This document shows, piece by piece, positions 9,830-28,196 of a stretch of DNA of 33,691 bases (positions are counted from its first letter, which is position 1; every line of letters begins with the position of its first letter). Both the position numbers and the translations under genes were made by a program. The DNA lies in assembly GCA_013289065.1 (NCBI GenBank), contig JABDAP010000024.1, positions 1 through 33,691 of the forward strand, written 5' to 3'. The notes beneath the pieces were generated by a model. It saw only the letters and a list, made by a program, of their open reading frames with translations, ran no database searches and was not told where the DNA came from. The stretch comes from Bacteroidota bacterium. GTDB lineage: Bacteria; Bacteroidota; Bacteroidia; Chitinophagales; Chitinophagaceae.

Positions 9830-10063
9830 TCATCGCGGGATCTTATATTCTGTTAAAAGAACGTTCAGGTCGATATCAAGCCCCTGCGCCAAAGCAACCA
9901 GTGTGGTAAAAGCAAGATTTACTTTCCCTTTCTCAATACGTTGTACCTGGCTATACTCCAAACCCGCAGCAGCAGCGAGCTGATGAATGCTGAGGCCCTT
10001 TTCCTGCCTGAGCTTTGTTAAGTGGGCAGCAAACCGCGCCAGTATTTTTTCTTTATTGCTCAT
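9830..10063 (-). CDS. XRE-family helix-turn-helix protein
   Basis: LTKLRQEKGLSIHQLAAAAGLEYSQVQRIEKGKVNLAFTTLVALAQGLDIDLNVLL. Confidence 0.9.
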   Translation of the reverse strand: MSNKEKILARFAAHLTKLRQEKGLSIHQLAAAAGLEYSQVQRIEKGKVNLAFTTLVALAQGLDIDLNVLLTEYKIPR

Positions 10064-10479: not shown

Positions 10480-10977
10480 ATGATAACAGCCATTACTTCC
10501 GCGTATAAAATGATCAGCAAACATGGCTTTGCTGATATCATGCAAAACAGTTCAACCGGAGAAAAGTCGCTGCACGCCACTTCTTTTTTTGATGTGGGCG
10601 ATACGATCCATGATTTTACTGCCGAAAAAGTTTTGGAAATCCCTACTTACCTTACTGTGCAGACAGGCGAGAACAAACACATCATACTATCGCCGGAGTT
10701 TTTGCAATACATCAATCATAGCTGCGACCCGAATGTTTTCTTCGATACGACCCGCATGCAGGTAATTGCTTTAAAAGAAATACAGCCGGGTGATGAACTG
10801 ATGTTCTTTTATCCTTCCAGCGAATGGGACATGACGCAACCATTTGATTGTTTTTGCGGAACAGCAAAATGCCTGCATCGGATAAAAGGCGCGGCGCATC
10901 TTACAGAAGAAGAAGCGGCCCGTTATAAGCTTACTGATTTTATACAACAACAGTTATTAAACAGAACGAAGAAATAA
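10480..10977 (+). CDS. SET-domain protein (putative lysine methyltransferase) with post-SET cysteine motif
   Basis: YINHSCDPNVFFD (NHSCxPN), QPGDELMFFYPSSEW (catalytic Tyr region), post-SET CFCGTAKC. Confidence 0.88.
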   Translation: MITAITSAYKMISKHGFADIMQNSSTGEKSLHATSFFDVGDTIHDFTAEKVLEIPTYLTVQTGENKHIILSPEFLQYINHSCDPNVFFDTTRMQVIALKEIQPGDELMFFYPSSEWDMTQPFDCFCGTAKCLHRIKGAAHLTEEEAARYKLTDFIQQQLLNRTKK

Positions 10978-10981
10978 TCTG

Positions 10982-12145
10982 ATGTATCCCTCTTCCGAAT
11001 GGATTCCTGCGGTGCCGGTTAACCGGCTGAAAATTTGGGTGCTGGCTCCCTGTCTCCTTACCAACGACGCCAATATCGATTACTACTACGACTTTTCGCA
11101 AAGCATTGCCGAATACACCAAAACGTTTGCTGAATTAAATATCAACTGGCACTGGCAACCCGTAACGATGAATGATTATGAAGTGATCATCGATGGTATT
11201 GTTGCAGAAAAAGAAGCTGGCAAATTTTTTCCCGTTGTTTTAAATTTATGCGATGGCGATGAAATAAACGGAACGCCCGGTGTTTCGGTTGTTCAGTTGC
11301 TTGAAATAAACGGATTGGTGTACACGGGTTCGGATGAATATTTTTACCGCATCACCACTTCCAAGATCCCGATGAAGCGTGCTTTTGATAAAGCAAAAGT
11401 TCCCACACCCAAATGGAAAGCGATCCTCTCAAAAGAAAAAGGGACGAAAAATATTTTTGATAAACTGGGCTGCCCAATTATTGTAAAACCTTCCGTATCC
11501 GGTGGCAGCATGGGCGTTGGTATCAAGAATGTTGTATCAACTCAGGAGGAATTACAGCAACAGATCCATAACATGTTTGAAGGTTACCGCGGATGGAACC
11601 TTGCAGCAGATGGCATCATCGCAGAAGAATTTATTACCGGCCCCGAGTTCACAACCATGATCGTTGGCTCTGCCCTGTTTCCCGATCAATGCAAAGTGCT
11701 GGCCCCTGTTGAAAGGGTATTTCATCCATCATTACCCGATACAGAAAAATTTTTATCATTCGACCGTTTGTGGGAAATATATGAAGAGGAATCAGCGATG
11801 CCCGGCGAAGACAGTTTTTATGAATACGGATCACCAGAAGCATCTCTTCATGATGCCATCAAACAACTAAGCCTCGATGCATACATAGCCGTTGGCGGTA
11901 CGGGTTATACAAGGGTTGATATCCGGATGGATCAGTCAACCAAAAAATTATACGTGCTCGAAGTAAATGCGCAATGCGGTTTAAGTGAAGATGAAGATTA
12001 TACCTCTATTGGTGCTATATTGCGCATGAGCGGCATTTCTTTTACAGAACTGATAGTTGAAATTATCAATGATGCATTCAGGAGAAAAGAAAAGGCCGAA
12101 CACGAAACTGTTTTTATTGCGCCCGTGCGGGAAAAATTGAAATGA
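10982..12145 (+). CDS. D-Ala-D-Ala-ligase-like ATP-grasp protein
   Basis: PIIVKPSVSGGSMGVGIKNV glycine loop; IIAEEFITGPEFTTMIV; GYTRVDIRMD...LYVLEVNAQCGLS. 4-bp gap from the SET gene. Confidence 0.88.
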   Translation: MYPSSEWIPAVPVNRLKIWVLAPCLLTNDANIDYYYDFSQSIAEYTKTFAELNINWHWQPVTMNDYEVIIDGIVAEKEAGKFFPVVLNLCDGDEINGTPGVSVVQLLEINGLVYTGSDEYFYRITTSKIPMKRAFDKAKVPTPKWKAILSKEKGTKNIFDKLGCPIIVKPSVSGGSMGVGIKNVVSTQEELQQQIHNMFEGYRGWNLAADGIIAEEFITGPEFTTMIVGSALFPDQCKVLAPVERVFHPSLPDTEKFLSFDRLWEIYEEESAMPGEDSFYEYGSPEASLHDAIKQLSLDAYIAVGGTGYTRVDIRMDQSTKKLYVLEVNAQCGLSEDEDYTSIGAILRMSGISFTELIVEIINDAFRRKEKAEHETVFIAPVREKLK

Positions 12146-13569
12146 AAGTCTGCGTACTACAACCTGATTACTCAAGAACTGCTGTGGATTACCAGTATTA
12201 TGATCCGCCCCGGAATTTATCAGCGTTATTGCCCGGTTCGCAGGTAGACCATGTATCACTCAATAAACTCACTACCTACAAACAACTCAAAGCATTACAG
12301 CATAAAGGCTATGATATTTTTGTAAACTTATGCGAAGGGTATCTTGAATGGGAAGTTCCATCCATCGATGTGATCTATACATTGGAATTACTGGGATTGC
12401 CATACACCGGCCCAACCACATTGTTATACGATCCGCCAAAAGAACTGATGAAATATGTTGCGTATTGCGAAAATGTTGCAACACCATCATATGTATTGAT
12501 CGAAAAAGAAGAAGATCTCGAAACAGCCAGTACACAACTAACTTTTCCTCTTTTTATAAAACCTGCCAAAGCCGGCGACAGTCTGGGTATCGATGAACAT
12601 TCTTTGGTGCACAATAAAGAAGAACTTGCCGAAAAAATAAAAACAACTTCAGAAGAATATCCCCAGCTGCTTGCGGAAGAATATATCGATGGCCGCGAAT
12701 TCACCATTCTTATCGCAGCGAACAGCGATGGACAAACAGCCACTACTTTTAAACCTGTGGAATATATTTTCCCTTCAGGCTTTCTGTTTAAAACATATGC
12801 ATTAAAAACTTCTGAGTTACATCCCGATGCAAATATTCCCTGCAACGATCCTGTTATTGAAAAACAATTGCGCGAGGCTGCACAAAAAATATTCAAAGGT
12901 TTTAACGGTGCAGGTTATGCGCGCCTGGATTTTCGGTTGAACGATAAAGGGCAGTTATTTTTTCTCGAAATAAATTTCACCTGCTCCGTTTTTTACAGCG
13001 ACGGTTATGAAGGCTCGGCCGATTATATATTAAAACATGATGGCATCGGCCAGCAGGGTTTTCTCAACCATATGATCGCCGAAGGCATTGCACGCCACGA
13101 ACGCATGCAAAAAAAATATATCGTTAAGGGAAATGCCATTTCCGGCTATGGAATTTATGCAACGAAACAAATTCAACCGGGCGAACTGATTTTTAAAGGC
13201 GAGGGCAGGTCGCAACGCATCATCACGCGCCGGTATGTGGAAGAGAACTGGCCCTTTAATGAAAAATTAATTTTCCGCCGTTATGCTTACCCGCTTAGTA
13301 ATGAGGTTTTTTTATTATGGGATGATAACCCAGCTGAATGGGCCCCGCAAAACCATTGCTGCCAGCCCAATACAAAATACGACGGGCTCAATGTAGCAGC
13401 CACTGTTCAGATAAATGCAGGCGAAGAACTAACGCTTGATTATGCTTCTTTCCTGGATGAAAATATGGAGCCCTTTCAATGTAATTGTGGCTCAATCAAT
13501 TGTCGCGGCTTAATTACAGGCAGGCCAGATAATTCGGTTACGCACAGGGAAAATAGGGCACAGCCTTAA
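12142..13569 (+). CDS. ATP-grasp ligase fused to C-terminal SET domain
   Basis: ATP-grasp: PLFIKPAKAGDSLGID, LLAEEYIDGREFTILIA, GYARLDFRLNDKGQLFFLEINFTC. SET: KGNAISGYGIYATKQIQPGELIF, NHCCQPNTKY, AGEELTLDYASF, post-SET CNCGSINC. ATGA overlap with the upstream ORF. Confidence 0.9.
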   Translation: MKVCVLQPDYSRTAVDYQYYDPPRNLSALLPGSQVDHVSLNKLTTYKQLKALQHKGYDIFVNLCEGYLEWEVPSIDVIYTLELLGLPYTGPTTLLYDPPKELMKYVAYCENVATPSYVLIEKEEDLETASTQLTFPLFIKPAKAGDSLGIDEHSLVHNKEELAEKIKTTSEEYPQLLAEEYIDGREFTILIAANSDGQTATTFKPVEYIFPSGFLFKTYALKTSELHPDANIPCNDPVIEKQLREAAQKIFKGFNGAGYARLDFRLNDKGQLFFLEINFTCSVFYSDGYEGSADYILKHDGIGQQGFLNHMIAEGIARHERMQKKYIVKGNAISGYGIYATKQIQPGELIFKGEGRSQRIITRRYVEENWPFNEKLIFRRYAYPLSNEVFLLWDDNPAEWAPQNHCCQPNTKYDGLNVAATVQINAGEELTLDYASFLDENMEPFQCNCGSINCRGLITGRPDNSVTHRENRAQP

Positions 13570-13701: not shown

Positions 13702-14637
13702 ATGTCAAGATTTGAGATTCTTCGAAAGCTGATGCAGAAACACCGGGGGCAACTGGTGTTTACGTATGTATTGTTTTCGCTGGAAATGCTGGGTTCATTA
13801 CTGCGCCCGTTTTTTCTCGGGGAAGCGGTGAATGATCTTATGAGAGGAAGTTATCGCGGGCTGATCATTTTATCTGCCGTTCACTTTGCATGGATCATCA
13901 TCGGTACTTTACGCCATCGGTATGATACAAGAACGTACTCGGCTATCTATACTTCATTAGTTACCCGTTTTTTATCACGCAGGATCGATCAGTCCGAAGT
14001 GTCTAAATTAAGCGCCCACTCAACACTTGCAAGGGAGTTTGTTGATTTTCTTGAATTCGACCTGGTGTATGTGATCGAAGCGATCTATAATTTACTGGGT
14101 TCGATCATCCTGTTATATTTCTATGACCGTTCGGTTGTTCTATTATGTCTCGCTATTCTTTTACCTGTTGTTGGTATCAGTTATGTTTATGGCAAAAGAA
14201 TGAAAAGGCTGAACCGTTTAAAGAATGATGAACTGGAACAGCAGGTAGACATTATTTCTTCCGGCGATAAAAAAGCGATCTTCAAACACTTTAATAACCT
14301 TCGCCACTGGCAGGTGCGCATCAGCGACCAGGAAGCATGGAACTTCGGTATCATGGAACTGATGGTGATGGTCGTGATCGGAATTTCTTTATTGGTTACG
14401 CACGCCGTTTCAGGAACAACCATACTTGCAGGTACCTTGATCGGTATCTATACATACATCCTCAAATTCGTATCGGGCCTTGATACAATACCTTATACCG
14501 TTCAACGGCTATCATCATTAAATGATATTACCCGCCGCATAGAATTACAGGCCGAAGATTTTCCTGTTGAAGGGACAGAAACCATTCAGCGGGATAAAAC
14601 GGTGCGGTTGTCTAAGATGAGTAAACCACTGATTTGA
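13702..14637 (+). CDS. ABC-exporter-type six-transmembrane domain protein lacking an ATPase domain
   Basis: Hydrophobic helices with ABC_membrane layout (LRPFFLGEAVNDLMRG, VLLCLAILLPVVGISYVYGKRMKRLN). No Walker A/B or signature motif before the stop. Confidence 0.75.
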   Translation: MSRFEILRKLMQKHRGQLVFTYVLFSLEMLGSLLRPFFLGEAVNDLMRGSYRGLIILSAVHFAWIIIGTLRHRYDTRTYSAIYTSLVTRFLSRRIDQSEVSKLSAHSTLAREFVDFLEFDLVYVIEAIYNLLGSIILLYFYDRSVVLLCLAILLPVVGISYVYGKRMKRLNRLKNDELEQQVDIISSGDKKAIFKHFNNLRHWQVRISDQEAWNFGIMELMVMVVIGISLLVTHAVSGTTILAGTLIGIYTYILKFVSGLDTIPYTVQRLSSLNDITRRIELQAEDFPVEGTETIQRDKTVRLSKMSKPLI

Positions 14638-21600: not shown

Positions 21601-24600
21601 ATGAACCAATATCAATTTTATAGATCAGTACTTTCTATTTCCGCGTTATTACGGGCGGATAGGATTGTGTGCAGGGCTTCCTGCGGAGTAAAACCGGCGC
21701 GTATATTTTTATTGGTTGCGATGATGTTGCCGTTTATTGTATCGGCGCAGGTTGATGCGGGGGGTATTGCAAAAAGCCAATGTATCACATCAGGCTCAAT
21801 ACCTTCGCTGTTTACTTCTTTGAGAGATGCGGCCGGAAGCGGCATAACAATAACATGGGAAAAAACAACTGTTGACAACACTTTTACATCAGGTGTTTCA
21901 ACCATTGCAACCGGAGTGCAATCGTATCAGGAGGCGGCTGTTGCCGTAACAACTTATTATCGAAGAGTTGTTACCAGTGGCGGGGTTCCCGTTTATAGTA
22001 ATGTGATAACAGTTAGTATTGTTGGCTCAGTTGTTAACCCAACATTTAATCCATCCGTGCCACCTTTCCCCATTATTTGCCAGGGAACAACAAGCTTCCC
22101 GGTAAATTATACCACTACCAATACCCCTGATCAATATTCTATAATATGGGATGCAACCGCAGCGGCGGCAGGTTTTACAGATGCAGTAAATCTTACACTT
22201 GCAGCAACACCGGGAAGTTTTAATGTAAGTGTTCCTTCAAATGCACCGGCGAATACTTATAACGGAACGTTGATAGCTGTTAATACAGGAACCGGTTGTA
22301 CCGTTTCAAATTCTTCTTCTGTTTTAATTAATCCATTGCCAACAGTAAGTATCACACCGCCTGCTGCAGTGTGTGCGCCGTCGTCGATTGACCTGACAAA
22401 TGCAAATATCACAAACGGTAGCACAGCAGATACTTACACACGATGGAATGATGCATTAGCAACTTCTTCTTTAACCAATGCGAATGCAGTAACGGCAACG
22501 GGTGTATACTATATAAAAGGCACGATCACAGCAACAGGTTGTTCAGTAATCAAACCTGTTACCGCTACGATCAATCCATTGCCAACAGCAACGGTCACAG
22601 CGGGCGGGCCAACAAGTTTTTGCGCAGGCGGATCAGTAACATTAACATCGAGCGCAGGAAATTCATATTCGTGGAATTCAGGACAAACATCACAGGCAAT
22701 TGTTGTAAGCGCCGGAGCAAATTATGCCGTTACGGTAACAAATGCAGCAGGATGTTCACTCTCTTCTTCTGTTACAACGGTAGTTGTTAATCCACTGCCA
22801 ACTGTAACTATTACAACACCTGCAGCAGTATGTGCACCGGCAACAATCGATCTGACAAATACAAATATTACAACAGGCAGCACAGCAGACACCTACACGC
22901 GATGGAATGATGCATTAGCAACTTCTTCTTTAACCAATGCAAATGCAGTAACGGCAAGCGGTGTATATTATATAAAAGGAACGATCGGTGCAACGGGTTG
23001 TTCGGTTATACAATCCGTTACGGCTACCATCAATCAATTGCCAACAGCAACGATCACAGCGGGCGGGCCAACAAGTTTTTGTGCAGGCGGATCAGTAACA
23101 TTAACATCGAGCGTGGGAAATTCATATTCGTGGAATTCAGGACAAACATCACAGGCAATCGTTGTAAGCGCCGGAGCAAATTATGCCGTTACGGTAACAA
23201 GCGCAGCAGGATGTTCACGCTCCTCTTCTGTTACAACGGTAGTTGTTAATCCATTACCAACTGTAAATATTACAACGCCTGCAGCAGTGTGTGCACCGGC
23301 AACGATCAACCTTACATCGGCAGGTATTACAGCAGGAAGCACGGCAAACTTTTACACACAATGGAATGATGTGTTGGCTGTTTCTTCTTTAACGAATGCG
23401 AATGCAGTAACGGCAAGCGGTGTATATTATATAAAAGGAACGATCGGTGCAACGGGTTGTTCGGTTATAAAACCCGTTACGGCAACGATCAATCAATTGC
23501 CAACAGCAACGATCACAGCAGGCGGCCCAACAACTTTTTGTACAGGCGGATCAGTAATATTAACATCGAGTGCGGGAAATGCTTATTCATGGAATTCGGG
23601 GCAAACATCACAGGCAATCGTTGTAAGCGCCGGAGCAAATTATGCCGTTACAGTAACAAGCGCAGCAGGATGTTCATCTGCATCTGCTGTTACACCGGTA
23701 GTGGTTAATCCCATTCCAGCCGTTACTATCACAACTCCTTCCGCTGTTTGTGCACCTGTAACAGTTAACCTTACAACAGCTGCCATCACAAATGGAAGTA
23801 CACCGGGATTGGTTTACACATACTGGACAGATGCAGCAGCAACCTCATCGCTAACTAATACAACTGCTATAAATACCAGTGGTACTTATTATATAAAAGG
23901 AACATCGCCTTCTGGTTGTTCAATGGTGCAACCTGTTTCAGTTATCATTAATACGCTGCCAACTGTAAATATTACCAACCCTGCGGCTGTGTGTGCGCCA
24001 TCGGTTATTAACCTTACATCTCCATCCATAACAGCAGGGAGTACTGCGGGAATAAATTTTACTTACTTCACAGATGCTGCTGCCGCAAATATTCTCTCAA
24101 CACCTGCAGCAGTAAGCAGTTCGGGTATTTATTATATTAAAGGGGTATTGCCTTCAACAGGTTGTACACTTATTAAACTGGTTGCAGTAACGGTAAATGC
24201 ATTGCCGGTTATTAATATCAACAACCCTGCGGCAGTTTGTGAACCTGCAACAGTCGATCTTTCTGCACCGGCTGTAACCAGTGGCAGTTCTTTGAGTACA
24301 ACATTCACTTACTGGACAGATGCTGCCAATACCATTGCGCTTATCACACCTGCATCAGTTGCCATATCGGGAACATATTATATTAAAGGAACTGTTGCAG
24401 GCAGTTGTTCCGCATCAAAACCGGTTTCAGTAATGATCAATCCATTACCAACAGGTGTATTGCAGCCGCCATCTGTTACATATATATGTGATGGCTTATC
24501 GCAAACACTTACCGCATCCGGGGCAAATAGTTATCAATGGTATCTTGATCAAAATATTATCACCGGCGCCACTGCTGCCAGTTATACAGCAACGGTTGGC

Positions 24601-25449
24601 GGAAATTATACTGTGCAGTTTGTTTCGAAAGATGGCTGTACCAGGAATGCAGCCAATGCCATTGCACTTGATCTTTTTGTAAAACCAATCGTTGCATTTA
24701 ATGCCGACAGCCGTTGTGCCGGATCGCTTATACATTTTACGAACAACTCATCCTATGCATCTTCAGGAACCGTTTCCTGGTTATGGGATCTTGGCGATGG
24801 GTCTTTTTCCAATAATTTATCAGCAACACATATCTATACTTCAGCAGCGGATTATGCGGTAGTATTAACTGCAAATAATATATCGTGCCCAAATCTTACA
24901 ACCGCTGCAACCGTTAATTATTCTGTTGAAACAGCATTGCCGGGTATCCGTTATGATACGATCTATTCTATCGGCAACAGATCATTCATCATCAATGCAC
25001 GCTCCTTTGGCGTGGGTTATTTGTGGCAGCCTTCAACAGGGTTACGGAATGCTGCTGCACAATCAACCATCATAAACCTCGACAGCAGCGTGTCATATAC
25101 GGTTGCCATCACCTCGGCAGCAGGATGTGTTACAACAGATTCTGTTTTTGTTAAGATAACCAATGATGGCGAGATCTATGTCCCGCAAGGCTTTACACCC
25201 AACGGCGATGGTATGAATGACCGTGCATACCCGATACTGATCGGAATAAAACAGCTGAATTATTTTAAGATATTTAACCGCTGGGGTAATATCGTTTTTC
25301 AAACAAATGATGCAGCACCTCAAAACGGATGGGATGGAAAATACCTGGGTAAGATGCAACCCACCGGAACATATGCATGGATAGCGGAAGCAATAGACGG
25401 GCACGGAAATATTATTCGCCGTGGTGGAAATATTCTTTTACTTAAATAG
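21601..25449 (+). CDS. Large repetitive secreted adhesin-like protein with PKD domain and T9SS type-B sorting domain
   Basis: Signal-like segment ARIFLLVAMMLPFIVSAQ; tandem Ig-like modules; PKD-like VSWLWDLGDGSFSNNLSATHIYTSAADYAVVLTA; C-terminal IYVPQGFTPNGDGMNDRAYPI...FKIFNRWGNIVFQT...GWDGKYLGKMQPTGTYAWIAEAID. Confidence 0.93.
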   Translation: MNQYQFYRSVLSISALLRADRIVCRASCGVKPARIFLLVAMMLPFIVSAQVDAGGIAKSQCITSGSIPSLFTSLRDAAGSGITITWEKTTVDNTFTSGVSTIATGVQSYQEAAVAVTTYYRRVVTSGGVPVYSNVITVSIVGSVVNPTFNPSVPPFPIICQGTTSFPVNYTTTNTPDQYSIIWDATAAAAGFTDAVNLTLAATPGSFNVSVPSNAPANTYNGTLIAVNTGTGCTVSNSSSVLINPLPTVSITPPAAVCAPSSIDLTNANITNGSTADTYTRWNDALATSSLTNANAVTATGVYYIKGTITATGCSVIKPVTATINPLPTATVTAGGPTSFCAGGSVTLTSSAGNSYSWNSGQTSQAIVVSAGANYAVTVTNAAGCSLSSSVTTVVVNPLPTVTITTPAAVCAPATIDLTNTNITTGSTADTYTRWNDALATSSLTNANAVTASGVYYIKGTIGATGCSVIQSVTATINQLPTATITAGGPTSFCAGGSVTLTSSVGNSYSWNSGQTSQAIVVSAGANYAVTVTSAAGCSRSSSVTTVVVNPLPTVNITTPAAVCAPATINLTSAGITAGSTANFYTQWNDVLAVSSLTNANAVTASGVYYIKGTIGATGCSVIKPVTATINQLPTATITAGGPTTFCTGGSVILTSSAGNAYSWNSGQTSQAIVVSAGANYAVTVTSAAGCSSASAVTPVVVNPIPAVTITTPSAVCAPVTVNLTTAAITNGSTPGLVYTYWTDAAATSSLTNTTAINTSGTYYIKGTSPSGCSMVQPVSVIINTLPTVNITNPAAVCAPSVINLTSPSITAGSTAGINFTYFTDAAAANILSTPAAVSSSGIYYIKGVLPSTGCTLIKLVAVTVNALPVININNPAAVCEPATVDLSAPAVTSGSSLSTTFTYWTDAANTIALITPASVAISGTYYIKGTVAGSCSASKPVSVMINPLPTGVLQPPSVTYICDGLSQTLTASGANSYQWYLDQNIITGATAASYTATVGGNYTVQFVSKDGCTRNAANAIALDLFVKPIVAFNADSRCAGSLIHFTNNSSYASSGTVSWLWDLGDGSFSNNLSATHIYTSAADYAVVLTANNISCPNLTTAATVNYSVETALPGIRYDTIYSIGNRSFIINARSFGVGYLWQPSTGLRNAAAQSTIINLDSSVSYTVAITSAAGCVTTDSVFVKITNDGEIYVPQGFTPNGDGMNDRAYPILIGIKQLNYFKIFNRWGNIVFQTNDAAPQNGWDGKYLGKMQPTGTYAWIAEAIDGHGNIIRRGGNILLLK
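22333..23709 (+). repeat. Three tandem 459-bp (153-aa) coding repeats, each a 243-bp A module plus a 216-bp B module
   Basis: Units begin at cca 22333, 22792 and 23251, with the next A module at 23710. A/B boundary in unit 1 is at 22576. Confidence 0.95.
23710..24441 (+). repeat. Three diverged A-type modules without B modules (243, 246, 243 bp)
   Basis: PIPAVTITTPSAVCAP (23710), TLPTVNITNPAAVCAP (23953), ALPVININNPAAVCEP (24199); the next module, B-like, begins at 24442. Confidence 0.88.
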
Positions 25450-25463
25450 TTGATCCAGCCGGA

Positions 25464-26471
25464 ATGTTCAAACGAACCAGACATATTATACTGCTTAGTT
25501 TTTTTATGTGCGCGAGTTATATAAGTATTGCACAGGATCCGCATTTTTCGCAATACTTCAGTTCGCCGCTGACATTCAATCCCGCATTTACAGGATATTT
25601 TGAAGGGTCAAGCCGGCTCACCGCAAACCTGCGCAGCCAATGGGCCAACGCAGGCGATACCTATGCAACCGGTACCGTTTCTTATGATACGAAGATCATG
25701 AAAACAAAGATCAGCGGCAACGACCGCTTGGGATTGGGTGTGCATGCATTGTATGACCAATCTTCCGGTGGCATTTTTAAAAACACTTATCTCTCACTGT
25801 CAACCGCATTTAACAAAGGCCTTGATGCGGAAGGCAATCAAAGTATAGGTATCGGCATACAGGCAACATTTGCACATAACAGTATCGACTTCAATAAAAT
25901 TTCTTTCAGCGACCAGTTTAACGGAAACGGTTTTGACCTCACTATTCCAAGCGGCGAAACAATTAATAACCGTTCTGCTTCTTATATGGATCTGAATGCG
26001 GGTGTTTTATATAATTATAAAGATGAAAGCGGCAACCAGTTTTCATTTGGTGCGGGTATTTTTCATTTGCTTACGCCAAAACTTTCTTTTTTTGCAGGAA
26101 ACAATAACTCCGTTCAACCGCGCTATACAATTCATGCCGGCGCCGGTTTTAATATGGGAGAGAATGATGATCTTTTTATAAGTGCGCACACAATGCAACA
26201 GGGAGGAGCCAGTGAATACGTGATCGGCGGGGCGTATGGGTTGGGTATTGGTACTAGCGGTATGTCGCTTTATTTAGGCGCATGGGTACGTGCAAAAGAT
26301 GCAGTATACCCATATATAGGATTACGAACACCCGATTTTCAACTGGGATTAACGTATGATATCATCACATCAGGACTCAGCCGTGTAAAAACTTTCAGCG
26401 GCAGCAGTGAATTATCTTTTATCTATTATATCAGCGCGAACAGGAAAAAGGGAATACCGTGTTTTTTCTGA
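25464..26471 (+). CDS. Type IX secretion system membrane protein PorP/SprF family
   Basis: AQDPHFSQYFSSPLTFNPAFTGYFEGSSRLTANLRSQWA; GLGVHALYDQSSGGIFKNTYLSLSTAF; outer-membrane beta-strand pattern; 14 bp after the adhesin. Confidence 0.93.
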   Translation: MFKRTRHIILLSFFMCASYISIAQDPHFSQYFSSPLTFNPAFTGYFEGSSRLTANLRSQWANAGDTYATGTVSYDTKIMKTKISGNDRLGLGVHALYDQSSGGIFKNTYLSLSTAFNKGLDAEGNQSIGIGIQATFAHNSIDFNKISFSDQFNGNGFDLTIPSGETINNRSASYMDLNAGVLYNYKDESGNQFSFGAGIFHLLTPKLSFFAGNNNSVQPRYTIHAGAGFNMGENDDLFISAHTMQQGGASEYVIGGAYGLGIGTSGMSLYLGAWVRAKDAVYPYIGLRTPDFQLGLTYDIITSGLSRVKTFSGSSELSFIYYISANRKKGIPCFF

Positions 26472-27782: not shown

Positions 27783-28196
27783 TCAATACCCTTCCACTTC
27801 CACGATCTTCCCGTAATCAACAAATAACTCTTCTCCATTGGCAATATCACGCGTGGCTTCAAACCATTTGCCGTCTTCAACAGAAATAAGATTGTAATCA
27901 GCAGAATGGTTCAGGTAGTTTGCAAAATCCATTATTTTACAACCATGTGCGGGTATAAAATAATGATGCTCGTTGTAGAGATAGTAGGTCTCAATAAAAT
28001 TTCTTGCATGTTCAGGCAACTGCTCCACTTCTTCCATACCGAGTTGGATCCACCCGCCGGTTTCTTTTGAAAAAATAGTACGGCAGCCTTTGGGAATATT
28101 CCGGATAGCAAATACGCCGATGCCTTCTACGGGTGATGGCTTTAGCATCACATAGGTTTCGTGCTGCAGTTCGTGCAGTAATGCTTCTTTTGTCAT
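27783..28196 (-). CDS. SET-domain-containing protein
   Basis: KPSPVEGIGVFAIRNIPKGCRTIF; FANYLNHSADYNL; ATRDIANGEELFVDYGKI. No post-SET cysteines. Confidence 0.85.
   Translation of the reverse strand: MTKEALLHELQHETYVMLKPSPVEGIGVFAIRNIPKGCRTIFSKETGGWIQLGMEEVEQLPEHARNFIETYYLYNEHHYFIPAHGCKIMDFANYLNHSADYNLISVEDGKWFEATRDIANGEELFVDYGKIVEVEGY

Follow-up and report, generated by a model that had tools for sequence, protein, structure and literature searches.

An ATP-grasp ligase fused to a SET domain in a conserved operon of the Chitinophagaceae, with a possible role in the synthesis of a small methylated metabolite

A protein found in environmental bacteria of the Bacteroidota joins an ATP-grasp ligase resembling D-alanine-D-alanine ligase (Ddl) to a SET methyltransferase domain in a single polypeptide, and its gene lies in an operon directly behind genes for a stand-alone SET protein and a stand-alone ATP-grasp ligase. 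The reading towards which we lean, with somewhat more confidence than doubt, is that the fusion belongs to an operon whose enzymes turn free amino acids into a small, methylated and peptide-like metabolite. A wider proposal, for and against which we find the balance to be even, is that of a conserved pathway, so far unrecorded, that would employ in the Bacteroidota a pair of Ddl-like ligases and a pair of SET domains, with one ligase fused to one SET, to build a methylated peptide-like metabolite for export, the fused SET being a small-molecule methyltransferase. The features concerned in the window, that is, the whole stretch of 33,691 nucleotides that was analysed, are as follows.

10480..10977, + strand: stand-alone SET methyltransferase, 165 aa, operon gene 1 (SET, E 5.9e-10)
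10982..12145, + strand: stand-alone Ddl-like ATP-grasp ligase, 387 aa, operon gene 2 (Dala_Dala_lig_C, E 5.7e-20)
12142..13569, + strand: ATP-grasp-SET fusion protein, 475 aa, from ATG to TAA without internal stop
12142..13110, + strand: ATP-grasp (Ddl-fold) part of the fusion, residues 1 to about 323 (Z of about 30 against Ddl structures; ATP/Mg residues invariant)
13114..13524, + strand: SET and post-SET part of the fusion, residues about 325-461 (Pfam SET, alignment and fold match)
13702..14637, + strand: ABC transporter membrane protein, ABC_membrane_3 (PF13748, E 3.9e-45)

The first-pass annotation of this DNA had described a complete ATP-grasp ligase followed by a complete SET and post-SET module on one polypeptide, and this description stands: the reading frame is uninterrupted, both folds are matched, and both Pfam domains are found above their curated cut-offs, Dala_Dala_lig_C at residues 122-278 (E 3.7e-23) and SET at residues 335-434 (E 4.8e-9). 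The AlphaFold2 model of the fusion, made from 16 relatives, has a mean pLDDT of 87.5 and a pTM of 0.77. Residues 1-323 of the model match D-Ala-D-Ala ligases with a best Z of 30.2 (rmsd 2.6, 298 residues), and since complete Ddl structures are matched over about 297 residues, the ligase half is whole, its N-terminal part included. The C-terminal 142 residues, modelled alone, match SET domains with a Z of about 12, which agrees with the Pfam match and with the invariant catalytic and post-SET residues described below in identifying this segment as SET. The junction is short, as had been claimed; in the model, a helix (residues 303-322) leads directly into the first strand of the SET domain, at residue 326, with no long linker.

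The source genome is a draft assembly of 129 contigs and 53% completeness, a circumstance in which two genes might have been joined by misassembly or by a frame error. Against this stands the recurrence of the same architecture in an architecture search within the Bacteroidota. The fusion query matched 60 of 195 sampled Chitinophagaceae genomes, of which 59 carry true fusions (two of them incomplete); the match in genome G133, at the end of a contig, falls on the neighbouring ATP-grasp and is not counted. A phylum-wide sample of Bacteroidota added four further families, one of them (f28) at 57% identity and the other three (f18, f24 and f54) at 36-39%. Among named genomes, the best 80 of 539 candidates are all Bacteroidota, mostly labelled Chitinophagaceae, with Sediminibacterium and Terrimonas isolates among them; Sediminibacterium goheungense, S. 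magnilacihabitans and Terrimonas pollutisoli are named carriers of the system. In addition, the SET domains of the fusions form a single group, all 28 of them lying on one side of one branch of the tree (support 93/86), which is consistent with one fusion event. Because the full architecture is present in dozens of independent genomes, isolates included, artefact and chance are excluded as explanations, and the probability left to a joining error is negligible. The distribution is nevertheless patchy, since the fusion was not found in two complete genomes of the source organism's own genus, and in a class-wide sample of 395 genomes it occurred only in Chitinophagaceae. Carriage of the fusion by phages or plasmids was considered and dropped: tblastn against phage and plasmid records returned ATP-grasp halves only, none spanning 80% of the fusion, and a search of IMG/VR gave three relatives, again ATP-grasp only.

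The genes of the operon are tightly packed, with 4 nt between the stand-alone SET and the stand-alone ATP-grasp, and with the stop of the latter overlapping the start of the fusion as ATGA. This arrangement is widely kept. The stand-alone SET precedes the fusion in 59 of 64 loci, and both the SET and the ATP-grasp lie upstream in 58 of the 64 named-genome loci with enough upstream sequence, while the ABC membrane protein follows the fusion in 47 of 72 named-genome loci. No ATPase domain was found in the ABC_membrane_3 protein of the window. In family f18 the order is SET, fusion, a complete ABC exporter with an ATPase domain and a second short SET; at the f18 locus L075 (4812-9074) this second SET has 120 aa, and there is no stand-alone ATP-grasp nearby. 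At the f24 locus L070 (3041-11099), the same-strand neighbours of the fusion are gamma-glutamyltranspeptidase, N-formylglutamate amidohydrolase, MATCAP and glutathione-synthetase-like genes, a neighbourhood that may point to a gamma-glutamyl peptide as the product. Scans for promoters and terminators found about as much as is expected by chance.

Other observations concern the surroundings of the operon. Upstream of it, on the opposite strand (9830-10063, -), lies the gene of a small helix-turn-helix-like protein of 77 aa, members of whose ORF cluster are also found near the operon in loci L045 and L080; it is a possible regulator. Farther downstream (21601-26471, +), a repeat-rich protein of 1282 aa is followed by a protein of 335 aa, and by sequence the two look like a gliding/type IX secretion pair of the PorP/SprF type. 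An anti-phage defence system was considered as well and rejected, as PADLOC gave no match to known defence families for the four proteins.

The genes of the system also occur together among the 195 sampled Chitinophagaceae genomes. The stand-alone ATP-grasp is present in all 59 genomes with the fusion and in G133 (60 of 195), and the stand-alone SET in 57 of the 59 as well as in G133 and G135; in the two fusion genomes lacking the SET (G139 and G156), the copies are at contig starts. In five genomes (G021, G118, G093, G053 and G168) the SET gene is kept, although it is distant from the fusion or on another contig, so linkage alone cannot explain the co-occurrence. Close homologues of the ABC membrane protein were found in 26 of the 195 genomes, all of them among the 60 with the system. 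Fisher's test gives p <1e-13 by genome and <1e-9 by genus, values whose significance is inflated by kinship among the genomes. Genome G135 (contig C218, 842-1318) is the sole sampled genome in which a close stand-alone SET was found but neither the fusion nor the stand-alone ATP-grasp.

The catalytic residues of both halves are intact in an alignment of 16 diverse fusions. In the ligase half, the residues equivalent to K144, E180, E187, K215, R255, D257, E270 and N272 of Escherichia coli DdlB are invariant, and the position of K97 is Lys or Arg. The residues E15, S150, Y216 and S281 of DdlB, which we take from established Ddl structures to be those holding D-Ala, are replaced in nearly all of the 16 fusions, whereas the Ddl of the source genome keeps them: E15 becomes Ser or Thr, S150 becomes Asp or Ala (with Ser kept in 2 of 16), Y216 becomes Thr or Trp, and S281 becomes Asp or Pro, although E15 and S281 fall in weakly aligned regions. 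Against TIGR01205, the fusion scores 92.5 bits, where the curated NCBIfam cut-off is 245.65; a separate true Ddl, encoded elsewhere in the genome, scores 281 bits and is over this cut-off. The loss of the specificity residues and the presence of this second, genuine Ddl gene rule out the fusion as a true Ddl. Since the ATP/Mg residues are kept, the D-Ala residues are lost and a Ddl is encoded separately, the ligase half is probably active on a substrate other than D-Ala-D-Ala. The stand-alone ATP-grasp shows the same pattern, with the catalytic residues conserved and the D-Ala specificity residues not.

In the SET half, N404, H405, C407, Y434 and the post-SET cysteines C447, C449 and C454 are invariant in the same alignment. 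The motif NHCCQPN is present as reported, but its extra cysteine, which had been singled out as a special feature, is not one that defines the family: in a census of 116 fusions the motif triplet is HSC in 94, HCC in 20, and HAC and HHC in one each, which makes the second cysteine a minor variant. SET enzymes are familiar mainly as methyltransferases of lysine in proteins, and the family is best known for histone marking. A different use is exemplified by BurB, a SET-domain methionine S-methyltransferase of DMSP and malleicyprol synthesis, which converts free methionine to S-methylmethionine (PMC12542666). Among SET proteins, BurB is the best PDB sequence match of the fused SET (48% identity over 58 residues), and it is also the best PDB sequence match of the stand-alone SET (9l4t, E 9.8e-10; 34% to a BurB fragment), with the deep branches of the tree unresolved. 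A segment [ST]-[LVI]-Q-x5-6-H is common to the stand-alone SET and the BurB-type SETs and absent from the fused SET, and of the two it is the stand-alone SET that appears closer to BurB. By fold, the fused SET ties between ASH1L (Z 12.1, rmsd 3.9) and BurB (Z 11.8, rmsd 3.0, 29% identity). An hhalign comparison of the two SET alignments was circular, one including members of the other, and its result was discarded. The window also encodes a third SET protein (27783-28196, -), of 137 aa, which has the motif NHSADYN, lacks the post-SET cysteines and is only distant kin of the other two.

In the proposed pathway, the ATP-grasp half would join a carboxylate to an amine with ATP, a reaction suggested by the observed fold and ATP/Mg residues, and the SET half is proposed to use SAM to methylate the same building block, or the product, on a side chain or an amine. 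A second ligation would fall to the stand-alone ATP-grasp, and the SET that stands alone, apparently the more BurB-like one, would act on an amino acid, for example methionine or lysine. In loci with the ABC membrane protein, this probable export partner would carry the product through the membrane, and fusing the two halves would keep ligation and methylation in step. The annotation had gone further in taking the fusion as strong evidence that both reactions act on the same molecule. The conserved two-domain enzyme with its intact residues provides strong circumstantial evidence, drawn from sequence, that ligation and methylation serve one pathway, and it is at this level of the pathway that the support stops.

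Two ligases, two methyltransferases, a transporter and no conserved precursor fit a small methylated peptide-like product. The contexts of SET relatives in other bacteria also count for the metabolite: a relative in Eleftheria terrae, 77% identical to the BurB fragment, lies in a PKS cluster with an aminotransferase and an aldehyde dehydrogenase, one in Sphingomonas adjoins diaminopimelate decarboxylase, and one in Rhizobium adjoins an asparagine-synthase-like gene and a SAM decarboxylase. On a conjugative plasmid of Thioflavicoccus (L180, 2467-6813), a Ddl-like ligase adjoins diaminopropionate genes (SbnA and an ornithine cyclodeaminase-like gene), a gene set that suggests a dipeptide pathway. 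Several points speak against such a metabolite. In the model, the fused SET is not clearly nearer to BurB than to histone methyltransferases (11.8 against 12.1), and its predicted substrate region differs in sequence from that of BurB. The ABC protein has no ATPase domain, and over half of the genomes are without it. Most natural-product clusters carry further tailoring enzymes, and none (oxidases, PLP enzymes) is conserved in the operon.

A serious rival, though an unlikely one, is a protein-modification system in which the ATP-grasps would attach an amino acid to some protein, in the manner of RimK and the tubulin tyrosine ligases, and the SETs would methylate a lysine of that protein. Protein lysine is the commonest substrate of SET domains, and structures of KMT2, ASH1L and NSD are matched by the fused SET no worse than that of BurB; in eukaryotes, moreover, TTLL12 joins SET-like and TTL-like (ATP-grasp) domains (PMC3520985), albeit in reversed order and with critical residues missing. 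The ligase half of the fusion, however, has the compact Ddl fold (Z of about 30), best known for joining free amino acids, the operon holds no conserved gene for a substrate protein, and the association with an ABC membrane protein suggests an exported small product.

The Ddl fold and the membrane transporter partner would also suit a cell-wall role, in which an unusual dipeptide, destined for peptidoglycan or some other polymer of the envelope, comes from the ligases and is modified by the SETs. This is improbable in view of the lost D-Ala specificity residues and the separate Ddl in the genome; beyond the named partners, the only genes conserved around the operon are housekeeping neighbours, and two-thirds of the Chitinophagaceae are without the system. 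More improbable still is the maturation of a short ribosomal precursor, as in the graspetides, a class of RiPPs in whose loci an ATP-grasp, a methyltransferase and an ABC transporter are frequent (PMC8939145). No conserved precursor peptide gene was found near the ligase among the small ORFs at 81 loci, where the widest small-ORF family, present at 11 of the 81, seems to consist of shadow frames of an adjacent gene, and the ligase is of Ddl type by family and fold. The synthesis of a small methylated peptide-like metabolite remains the reading that we prefer.

The domain families are known, but the fusion and the conserved system around it appear undescribed within the open-access literature, in whose full text no bacterial ATP-grasp-SET fusion was found. 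BurB showed that a SET domain can methylate a free amino acid; if the proposed role is true, SET chemistry has been adopted for small-molecule synthesis more widely, well beyond BurB. The system also predicts a Chitinophagaceae metabolite that has apparently not yet been looked for, and because named strains carry it, this prediction is directly testable.

Among known systems, Ddl (PF07478, TIGR01205) shares with the fusion the whole ATP-grasp fold and the catalytic Lys, Glu, Arg, Asp, Glu and Asn, and differs in the residues that select D-Ala and in family score. BurB (PDB 9l4t, 9l4v) has H(S/C)C, the catalytic Tyr and the post-SET Cys in common with the stand-alone and the fused SET, whereas it is a free protein without a ligase, and the substrate segment of the fused SET is longer and of other sequence. 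TTLL12, for which no activity was found in vitro (PMC3520985), is the only described protein found to join a SET-like to an ATP-grasp (TTL) domain and thus has the nearest architecture, although its SET-like domain is at the N terminus and its ATP-grasp is of another type. Another example is the assembly of cystargolide and belactosin, with the ATP-grasp CysD, the methyltransferase CysG and the fusion CysFE, according to the excerpt available of its account (PMC11427300). CysG is described there as a carboxyl methyltransferase, the excerpt mentions no SET domain, and the pathway includes beta-lactone enzymes, which are absent from the system of the window. That assembly nevertheless resembles the present system in bringing an ATP-grasp ligase and a SAM methyltransferase together in one small-peptide pathway, in which fused enzymes hand on intermediates.
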